In this document: one piece after another, positions 8,743 through 61,481 of the stretch | Layout of the letters: every line of letters starts with the position of its first letter | How positions within the stretch are numbered: position 1 is the stretch's first letter | Source: Gammaproteobacteria bacterium | Lineage (GTDB): Bacteria; Pseudomonadota; Gammaproteobacteria; Magnimaribacterales; AG-339-G14 | Direction of reading: 5' to 3' | Assembly: GCA_019652555.1 (NCBI GenBank) | Contig: BPAJ01000001.1 | Location: 124,001-188,000 of the forward strand | DNA length: 64,000 bases | The notes under the pieces: generated by a model | What the model was told of the DNA's origin: nothing | The model's database searches: none | What the model saw: the letters and a program-made list of their open reading frames with translations, nothing else | Made by a program: the position numbers and the translations under genes

Positions 8743-11052
8743 ATGGCAGATATAAATGTTAAACAACTTTCTAAAGCAATAAAAATTGATTTAGATAATT
8801 TGTTGGCCCAGATGAAGGCGGCGGGTCTTTCTCATAAATCAGAAAAAGATATTGTTAGTACTGAAGATAAAAAAGTACTTTTAAAATTCATCAAAGATAG
8901 TAAGAAAGACAGTAAAAAAACCATTTCCTTAAGTACCTCTTCCCAAAAAACAGCAAAACCAAACTTATCTGTCACAAGAATTAATTCTCCAGATAAAGAA
9001 AAAAAGTCAAATGTAAAACAAGACTTTACTGGATCAATTGATTTCGACGAAGCAGAAAGAAAAAGATTGAATGCTCAAAATGAGTCAGCAGAAGAAGAAA
9101 AAAAGAAAGCTGAAGCAAAAACAAAAGTTGTCAGAAAAACAAAGCAGGAACCCCAAAAGAAAATTCCTCAAAACTTAAAAAAAGACAAAAAAACATTTAA
9201 AGACAGCTCCAAAGAGGATCAAAGAGAGCAAGAGGGTGAAAAATTTCTAGAAAAAAACTTTGAAAATGTTCAAAAATTTGAAAAACCACAAGAATTCATC
9301 CAAAAAGAAGTAAAAATTCCTGAAACCATTGTCGTATCGGAGCTTGCTAAAGAACTATCCATTAAATCATCGGATTTGATTAAATCGTTAATGAATAGTG
9401 GAGTCATGGTAACTTTAAATCAAGCTATTGATCAGGAGACAGCTATTTTAGTTGTTGAAGAGTTGGGACACATTGGTATTCCTCAAGACATTGAATCTGA
9501 AGAGGAAAAAATTCTTGAGAATATAGTTTATGAAGGAGATGAAGAGCTGAGGAATCCGGTTGTCTCAGTTTTAGGACATGTTGACCATGGAAAAACTTCA
9601 ATACTTGATTTTATTAGAAAATCATCTGTAGCTGATCAAGAAGAAGGGGGAATTACTCAAGGAATTGGGGCCTATCAGGTAGATCGAAATAATCAAACCA
9701 TTACATTTATCGATACGCCTGGACACGCAGCCTTTTCAGAAATGCGAGCAAGAGGAGCCAACTCCACAGATATCGTAGTTTTAGTTGTTGCTGCCGATGA
9801 CAGTGTTCAACCTCAAACAGAAGAGGCTTTCAATCATGCAAAAGCTGCAAATGTTCAGGTGATAGTTGCAGTAAACAAAATTGATAAACCCGATTCAGAC
9901 ATAGAGAAAGTAAAAGGAGATCTCTCAAAAATGGGCCTTGTCCCAGAAGATTGGGGTGGCGATACTCAGGTAGTTCCTGTGTCAGCAAAAACTGGTGAGG
10001 GAATAGATGACTTAATAGAAAATATCACTTTGCTTTCTGAAATGTTGGAATTAAAAACCAATCATGACGGTCCAGCGTCCGGAGTGGTTTTAGAATCTGG
10101 AGTCAAAAAAGGTGAGGGAGCTGTTGCGACTCTTCTGGTTCAAAGAGGTACTTTAAATAGCGGAGATTTTGTCTTAATTGGAGATCAATTTAGAAAAATA
10201 AGGAGCCTCAAAAACTTTTTAGGATCTCAAATTAAAACTTCTCCTCCATCATCTCCTGTTGCAATCTCTGGACTTGAATATCCTCCCAATGCCGGACAAG
10301 AGTTCATGGTTGTTAAAGATGAAAAGGCTGCGAAGAGTTTGTCTGAAGAAAGAGCTAGCAAAAGTAGAGATAATAGATTGGCCAAAAAGGGAGTAGTCAG
10401 CTTAGATGGTATTTTTGCAGGCGCCGGGGATTCCGCAAAACCTTCAGTAAATTTAATAATCAAAACAGATACAAACGGTTCTGCAGAAGCAATTGCAGGT
10501 GCTATAAATAATTTAAAAGTAGAAGACGCAAAGATCAAAATAGTCTTGGATGGCGTCGGCCCAGTTTCAGTAAACGATGTTAATTTAGCTGTCGCTTCAG
10601 AAGCCGTTATTCTTGGATTTAATGTAAGGTCTGACGCAGCAGCAGAAACGCTTGCAGAAACAGAAGAGATAAAAATTCAGTATTTTGGAATAATTTATGA
10701 CTTACTTGATGCTGTAAAAGAAATAATTGAAGGCTCTCTTGAGCCTGAAATAAAAGAGGTTACAGTTGGAATTGCAGAAGTTAAGGATACCTTTAAATCG
10801 CCAAAGTTTGGTTTGATAGCTGGTTCAATTGTCATAGAAGGAGCAGTGATAAAAAATCTTCCAATACGAGTTCTTAGAGACAATATCGTTATTCATGAGG
10901 GCAAGCTAGATTCTTTAAGAAGGTTCAAAGATGAGGCTAGTGAAGTAAAAAGCGGAACAGAATGTGGAATTGGTATCGAAAATTACAACGATGTAAAAGT
11001 TGGAGATAAAATAGAAGTTTTCGAAAGAACAGAAACTGCTAGAAAAATTTAA
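8743..11052 (+). CDS. infB: translation initiation factor IF-2
   Basis: VSVLGHVDHGKTSILD, DTPGHAAF, NKIDK motifs. Confidence 0.98.
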   Translation: MADINVKQLSKAIKIDLDNLLAQMKAAGLSHKSEKDIVSTEDKKVLLKFIKDSKKDSKKTISLSTSSQKTAKPNLSVTRINSPDKEKKSNVKQDFTGSIDFDEAERKRLNAQNESAEEEKKKAEAKTKVVRKTKQEPQKKIPQNLKKDKKTFKDSSKEDQREQEGEKFLEKNFENVQKFEKPQEFIQKEVKIPETIVVSELAKELSIKSSDLIKSLMNSGVMVTLNQAIDQETAILVVEELGHIGIPQDIESEEEKILENIVYEGDEELRNPVVSVLGHVDHGKTSILDFIRKSSVADQEEGGITQGIGAYQVDRNNQTITFIDTPGHAAFSEMRARGANSTDIVVLVVAADDSVQPQTEEAFNHAKAANVQVIVAVNKIDKPDSDIEKVKGDLSKMGLVPEDWGGDTQVVPVSAKTGEGIDDLIENITLLSEMLELKTNHDGPASGVVLESGVKKGEGAVATLLVQRGTLNSGDFVLIGDQFRKIRSLKNFLGSQIKTSPPSSPVAISGLEYPPNAGQEFMVVKDEKAAKSLSEERASKSRDNRLAKKGVVSLDGIFAGAGDSAKPSVNLIIKTDTNGSAEAIAGAINNLKVEDAKIKIVLDGVGPVSVNDVNLAVASEAVILGFNVRSDAAAETLAETEEIKIQYFGIIYDLLDAVKEIIEGSLEPEIKEVTVGIAEVKDTFKSPKFGLIAGSIVIEGAVIKNLPIRVLRDNIVIHEGKLDSLRRFKDEASEVKSGTECGIGIENYNDVKVGDKIEVFERTETARKI

Positions 11053-60348: not shown

Positions 60349-61212
60349 TTGAATCATTACGAAATTATTTATATTTTTAACCCTGATGAAAAAGAGCTGG
60401 GTAAATCTCTATTCGATAAAATATTAGAGACAACCAAATCCATTAAAGGTCAGATACATAGATCCGAAGAAATTGGCTCAAGAAGATTGGCATATCCAAT
60501 AAAAGATTTCTATCGAGGCGAGTACTTTTTAATCAACTTAGAGTGTAATTCCTCTGAGCTAGCATCAATAACCGACCTTTTTAAATTTAATGAAAATATT
60601 TTAAGGACATCCGTTTTAAAGAAAAAACAAGCTGAAACTGGCAAATCAGCTCTCATGGAACAAACCAAAGACTCTTCGTATGAAAAAGATTCAAAAGACG
60701 AAGGCCTTGTAAAAAAAGTTTCAAATGAAGCAAAAGAAGTTTTATCAAAAGCAGAAGAAGTAGTTGAAGACGCCATTGAAGAAGTCAAAGAAGCTGCTGA
60801 AAAAGTCGAAGAAGTTGTAGAAGATGTGGTTGAGGATGTGGTTGAGAAAGCTGAGGAGATTGTCGAAGCTGCTGAGGAAGTCGTTGAGGATGTTGTTGAA
60901 AAAGCAGAAGAAGTAGTTGAAGACGCCATTGAAGAAGTCAAAGAAGCTGCTGAAAAAGTCGAAGAAGTTGTAGAAGATGTGGTTGAGGATGTGGTTGAGA
61001 AAGCTGAGGAGATTGTCGAAGCTGCTGAGGAAGTCGTTGAGGATGTTGTTGAAAAAGCAGAAGAAGTAGTTGAAGACGCCATTGAAGAAGTCAAAGAAGC
61101 TGCTGAAAAAGTCGAAGAGGTTGTTGAAGAAGTAGTTGAAGAGGCAAAAGAAAAAGCAAAAGGAGTTTTTGCAAAAGTTAAGAATGTTTTTAAATCAGAT
61201 AAGAAAAAGTAA
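60349..61212 (+). CDS. rpsF: 30S ribosomal protein S6 with long acidic repetitive C-terminal extension (TTG start)
   Basis: [14 protein letters not shown]..., [16 protein letters not shown] core, then about 190 aa of extension; rpsF-rpsR-rplI order. Confidence 0.94.
60748..61118 (+). repeat. 153-bp in-frame tandem repeat, about 2.4 copies (51 aa [51 protein letters not shown])
   Basis: Copies start at 60748, 60901 and 61054; the first two appear identical by eye at nucleotide level; third is identical to about 61118. Confidence 0.95.
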
Positions 61213-61217
61213 GATAT

Positions 61218-61481
61218 ATGAGAAGACAAAAAGATAACAAAAGAAGAAATCAGAATCAGGATAACTTTCTAAAGCCTAAAAGAGCTTGTCAATTTACTGC
61301 AGCAGGCGTTGAAGAAATTGATTATAAAGATGTTGAGCTTTTAAAAAAATTCATAACAGAAACAGGAAAGATTATTCCAGCACGTATGACCGGTACAAGT
61401 GCAAAGTATCAACGCCAACTTACTAGAGCCATAAAAAGAGCAAGGCTTTTGGCATTATTACCTTTTACAGATAGTCATTAA
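61218..61481 (+). CDS. rpsR: 30S ribosomal protein S18
   Basis: [35 protein letters not shown]. Confidence 0.97.

Follow-up and report, generated by a model that had tools for sequence, protein, structure and literature searches.

A long, repeat-built amphipathic tail on ribosomal protein S6 in one genus of SAR86, and a similar tail on S16

The window analyzed here is a stretch of 64,000 nucleotides (G000:C1:124001-188000) from a 1.24-Mb, 3-contig genome. Among named genomes, the nearest to it are those of SAR86 cluster bacteria with isolate names such as AG-422-E19, AG-447-O04, AG-899-P03, and AH-326-N13, and names of the AG-422-E19 form are usual for single-cell genomes. In this window rpsF (60349..61212, plus strand) encodes a ribosomal protein S6 of 287 amino acids, which starts at a TTG codon preceded by a strong GGAGG and ends at a TAA stop codon. 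The gene is present as a single copy and lies in the usual rpsF-rpsR-rplI-dnaB cluster, in which dnaB was assigned from its own sequence. rpsR, encoding S18 (61218..61481, plus strand), begins with an ATG that follows the S6 stop codon by 5 nt, an offset that is 5-14 nt across the genus, and is followed by rplI, encoding L9 (61486..61938, plus strand), an ordinary neighbor recognized by its open reading frame and Pfam match. An antisense open reading frame of 239 amino acids (60510-61229, minus strand) lies over the S6 tail; it is a T/S-rich shadow of the repeat described below and likely not a gene. Elsewhere in the window a K/E/A-rich low-complexity stretch (9087-9143) is found in the N-terminal part of an IF-2-like protein (8743-11052).

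The S6 core comprises amino acids 1-93 (60349..60627). Residues 3-91 match PF01250 (Ribosomal_S6) with 71.9 bits against a curated cut-off of 27, the best PDB matches of the product are S6 chains, and AF2 models the core with a pLDDT of about 93. From residue 94 the same reading frame continues into a tail of 194 residues (94-287) with a net charge of -44, 88% of which are E, V, A, K, D, or I and which ends in SDKKK. The initial annotation had read the protein in much the same way, with a core ending at about residue 93 and about 190 residues of this composition closing in a basic segment. All on the plus strand, the tail can be divided into a variable linker (amino acids 94-118; 60628..60702), where AF2 confidence is low, a putative amphipathic acidic helix segment (119-265; 60703..61143), and a basic C-terminal tip of 22 residues (266-287; 61144..61209).

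The greater part of the tail is built from a tandem repeat, which Tandem Repeats Finder places at 60747-61139 with a period of 153, 2.6 copies, 98% match, and a score of 758. Three 153-bp units starting at 60748, 60901, and 61054 had been claimed. The first two (60748..60900 and 60901..61053, plus strand, 51 amino acids each) are indeed identical at 153/153 bases, while the third is only partial: it is identical for its first ~66 nt (61054..61118, plus strand) and divergent beyond, so that identity at the 153-nt period holds between 60747-60965 and 60900-61118. Identity of this extent is far beyond chance. The three-unit layout is also present in the close relative AG-422-E19 (G010; core pS 0.05 against the window genome, G000) and in a more distant species of the genus (G011; core pS 0.51), the latter with a unit sequence of its own, and thus the repeat cannot be put down to an error in a single assembly. 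Repeat copies agree at 153/153 positions within G000 and at 152/153 within G011, whereas the units of the two genomes agree at only 136/153; judged from these comparisons, the array is subject to concerted evolution or repeated re-duplication, in line with the earlier suggestion of recent or ongoing homogenization. The in-frame unit itself measures 153, 120, or 54 nt (51, 40, or 18 amino acids) depending on the species, and copy number, for which variation between strains had been thought possible, differs between species as well.

The exact number of copies calls for caution, as the S6 repeat interrupts several assemblies: the contigs of G004, G005, and G009 end just before it, and that of G007 begins inside the tail and holds the 3' part only. 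In another genome, G001, the tail apparently contains one unit only and is shorter by exactly two units, which means either that arm length is dispensable or that the repeat collapsed in assembly. These contig ends, the deficit of exactly two units, and identical units longer than short reads would all fit a copy number produced by collapse or expansion during assembly, but we regard this as very improbable, given the same layout in G010 and, with different units, in G011; the doubt is limited to the exact number, and the tail itself is secure. Counting S6 and S16 tail repeats together, contigs of five genomes of the genus end or begin at such a repeat, namely G004 (L033), G009 (L034), G005 (L035), G007 (L142), and G012 (L101).

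A long amphipathic helix had been proposed from the spacing of V and A, and the periodicity of the sequence agrees with it. From about residue 122 to 287 the G000 tail follows one straight amphipathic helix pattern, with its spectral power highest at 99 degrees per residue (3.64 residues per turn) and a mean hydrophobic moment of 0.49 against 0.195 +/- 0.025 in shuffled sequences (z=12). The hydrophobic face points the same way throughout 166 residues (R=0.99 at 99 degrees), and on a helical wheel one half of the circumference carries V/A/I with few E or K, and the other E/D/K. Neither proline nor glycine occurs from residue 122 up to the glycine of the tip. A left-handed heptad coiled coil was considered and rejected, as coherence drops to 0.19 at 102.86 degrees (3.5-residue period) from 0.99 at 99 degrees. 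The 51- and 40-residue units correspond to 14 and 11 turns, and the tail of G012, with its 18-residue unit, peaks at 100 degrees (18/5 = 3.6). In G000, G011, and G006 register is kept from one end of the tail to the other, and in G013 the phase shifts once; since exchange between similar segments would be expected to enlarge an array in register in any case, register alone is no proof of selection. AF2 draws two helices of ~77 residues (126-201 and 208-285) with a pLDDT of about 50, and at such low confidence the model cannot decide the shape or function of the tail. The straight hydrophobic stripe is of the apolipoprotein/perilipin type (3.64-3.67 residues per turn), and the tail scores below the cut-offs of such families (33.2 bits against 90 for PF01442, 28.9 against 36.3 for PF07464). 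Weak Pfam matches to phasin, Rv1893, apolipoprotein, and EcKL were regarded as low-complexity helix resemblance and not taken as homology.

A comparison of rpsF tails in relatives had been called for, and among 203 genomes of the order, in 172 of which S6 was detected, the arm is seen in every member of genus g1 (the genus of the window genome) with a readable tail and in none of the other genera. The eight complete g1 proteins range from 185 to 290 amino acids and all share the V/A/E helix and a common end, while outside g1 the longest S6 reading frame among the matches listed is 229 codons. Acidic S6 tails of ~35-110 residues, rich in K/E/D/S/N, are found in other genera of the same family (f1) and in families f2 and f3; in f4, S6 has no tail. 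Over 24 S6 tails, the z-score of the hydrophobic moment is 6.4-12.6 in g1 and -1.4 to 3.0 in all others. A search for relatives of the tail outside its own genome, in 369 genomes across the class, yielded only one weak match of 23% identity; a 148-residue match (L143) that had been a candidate for a free-standing homolog turned out to be atpC. The restriction to a single genus goes beyond the initial annotation, as do the similar tail on S16 and the finding that the tip is the most conserved part.

Against G011, whose S6 is of the same length, pN/pS is 0.12 in the helix region and 0.09 in the core, rising to 0.42 in the linker, and the tip shows no amino acid change at all (pN 0 at pS 0.40). 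The last 29 codons are less variable than the core in each of three comparisons, with pN of 0 versus 0.045 (G011), 0.078 versus 0.146 (G012), and 0.079 versus 0.154 (G013), and across strongly diverged species the tip residues are nearly invariant, without even V/I/L or K/R exchanges. In the helix, 15/15 substitutions against G011 remain within V/A/I or within D/E (expected fraction 0.60, nominal P 0.0005), although homogenization copies changes, so that by our estimate these represent about 8 independent events (P about 0.02). Judged by these substitution patterns, the tail is encoded in frame and under purifying selection.

When the window genome was searched with the S6 tail, only S6 itself and S16 (rpsP) were matched. 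The S16 gene lies outside the window at G000:C1:255.7-256.8 kb (L065:651-1716, L094), upstream of rimM and trmD, and in g1 it encodes about 350 amino acids with an amphipathic tail of ~207 residues (98 degrees, z 12). A related S16 tail occurs in genus g3, and most of the remaining order has APAEE-type repeat tails on this protein. These APAEE-type repeats, another repeat-built ribosomal tail, are of very different lengths (L070-L086, L108-L114). Because S6 has an ordinary tail in g3 although S16 there carries the arm, the arm on S6 is probably the later addition, made in g1. At their ends, the tails of S6 and S16 have VK[ND]xFxSD in common (shuffle p 0.0045 in G000, 0.03 in G013), a sign that the two arms may be connected. 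A degenerate DNA pattern for VK[ND]xFx[ST]D finds exactly two sites in the genome, both at these protein ends, with zero in the control; the pattern was written from S6 and S16 themselves, and thus the count speaks for the absence of a third site and not for significance. The S16 tip is acidic (charge -3) where that of S6 is basic, which makes a common partner uncertain. We also considered a common origin of the two tails at the DNA level, for which a blastn score of 85 bits seemed good evidence when compared with codon-shuffled controls. Synonymous-codon shuffles reach equal scores in 15/60, 38/60, 22/60, and 19/60 cases, and in 2/60 for the S6 tail of G012 against the S16 tail of G013; protein pattern and codon use suffice to explain the similarity, and a common origin is not supported.

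The S16 tail starts with an in-frame Met (ATG) that has GAGG upstream at Shine-Dalgarno spacing in 14/14 sequences of the genus. Synonymous variation is found in 5/19 conserved codons of this stretch against 157/213 elsewhere (Fisher 6e-5, for a stretch that we chose ourselves after the site had been noticed). In g3, GAGG is present in G026 and G032 and absent in G023, and G020 has Met-Glu at the site. This suggests an internal start in rpsP as a candidate source of a free tail protein.

Extensions of both proteins are already known from other bacteria. In Mycoplasma pneumoniae, ribosomal protein extensions, that of S6 included, are present on working ribosomes, and the S6 extension is C-terminal and partly helical like the arm described here; such extensions are common throughout bacteria, their function is mostly not known, and in M. 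pneumoniae most are predicted to be disordered (PMC9534751). The accessible part of that source describes neither a straight amphipathic helix built from repeats nor a pairing with S16. Cutibacterium acnes has a C-terminal bS16 extension that contacts uS4 on the 30S subunit, comparable to the S16 tail by position; it differs in having 65 amino acids and in not being described as a repeated amphipathic helix, and the S6 of that species is shorter than that of E. coli (PMC10085706). In form only, the closest likeness is perilipin 4, a giant helix of 33-residue (3x11) repeats that coats lipid droplets and shares the long tandem array, near-identical repeats, and unbroken hydrophobic stripe, whereas the S6 tail forms part of a ribosomal protein and has a strongly negative charge (PMC5889406). 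A literature search of partial coverage found no paper on such S6/S16 arms in SAR86, and it is their helical, concertedly evolving, and paired form that is new. An ocean lineage with a streamlined 1.2-Mb genome keeps genes for two long amphipathic arms on 30S proteins, and in one of them, on S6, the repeat units turn over in concert while the tip hardly varies. The g1 ribosomes seem to have gained protruding arms, and in SAR86 the question of what ribosomal tails do becomes directly testable.

We tentatively favor a reading, possible though still short of probable, in which the S6 tail serves the 30S subunit as a docking arm specific to this lineage. Such an arm would begin with the variable linker, run on as a single unbroken amphipathic alpha-helix, V/A/I on one face and rich in E/D on the other, and close in the fixed basic amphipathic tip; at ~145-165 residues the helix could span up to ~25 nm when fully extended. 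The acidic face would keep the arm off rRNA so that it projects from the 30S platform, and the V/A/I stripe may pack on another amphipathic helix, be it a hairpin partner within the same tail or the S16 arm of the same or a neighboring 30S. The tip would then dock on a specific protein or RNA partner, which its near-invariance favors over generic lipid. The length of the middle would be tolerated as a spacer, with selection acting on pattern and tip. In E. coli the C-terminal extension of S6 lies on the solvent side of the 30S (PMC10085706), and in Flavobacterium S6 holds the 3' tail of the 16S rRNA together with S18 and S21 (PMC9976891); by analogy, other ribosomes, the membrane, or initiation factors may be within reach of the arm. 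A more elaborate proposal, which we consider distinctly doubtful, is that the S6 and S16 arms form a two-arm docking device in which VK[ND]xFxSD is recognized by one partner, the S16 arm being made also as a free protein from the internal rpsP start. If so, the ribosomes of this lineage would have a dedicated and evolving system for clustering or tethering.

Two other functions are unlikely, though they deserve consideration. In the first, the basic tip inserts into the inner membrane and the acidic helix serves as a stiff spacer that holds ribosomes close. An 18-residue window at the tip has a charge of +6, a hydrophobic moment of 0.40, and a discriminant of 2.35, such as peripheral membrane helices would be expected to show; but generic lipid binding does not usually keep residue identity so nearly invariant, and negative charge is found at the S16 tip and, strongly, along the long middle of the S6 tail. 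In the second, the tail is a longer version of the acidic tails of the relatives, a coat that keeps other ribosomes, as well as RNA, at a distance in the crowded interior of a small cell. Acidic S6 tails in most of the order, S16 tails acidic throughout, and the high negative charge here are in its favor. A straight hydrophobic stripe and a conserved basic tip would both be superfluous in a brush of this kind, and the S6 tails of the relatives are not amphipathic; the amphipathic pattern speaks against a plain acidic brush being the full explanation. It is highly unlikely that the tail is merely a tolerated low-complexity expansion, arisen in an E/V-rich tail through slippage or through unequal exchange: tandem units that differ by species and are homogenized would be expected of it, but the low pN/pS in helix and tip, the face class kept in every substitution, and the register kept over whole tails do not fit, and it is disfavored by these selection tests.

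As a main idea, the suggestion of the initial annotation that the tail could be a genome-encoded poly-acidic replacement for polyglutamylation by RimK is not supported. In Pseudomonas, RimK adds chains of about 4 glutamates to S6 (RpsF) post-translationally; the acidic C-terminus is shared with g1, whereas the g1 tail is encoded, patterned, and basic-tipped in a genus where RimK was not found (PMC7343187). The rimK search that had been suggested gave nothing above the TIGR00768 curated cut-off in the window genome, where the best profile match is gshB, adjoining rsmE, or in any of 16 genomes of the genus (59-96% complete). This is what a replacement would predict, yet all of family f1 is without RimK above cut-off, including genera that carry only short acidic S6 tails, and so RimK absence is uncorrelated with the arm; with an encoded end that is basic and not poly-E, and with an amphipathic V/A/I face unlike poly-E, the replacement is scarcely credible. 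RimK-family proteins above the cut-off are present in 29/203 genomes of the order, all in f2, f3, and f4. Their reading frames (G162, G057, G079, and 26 others) measure about 455-483 codons, compared with about 300 for the usual RimK.
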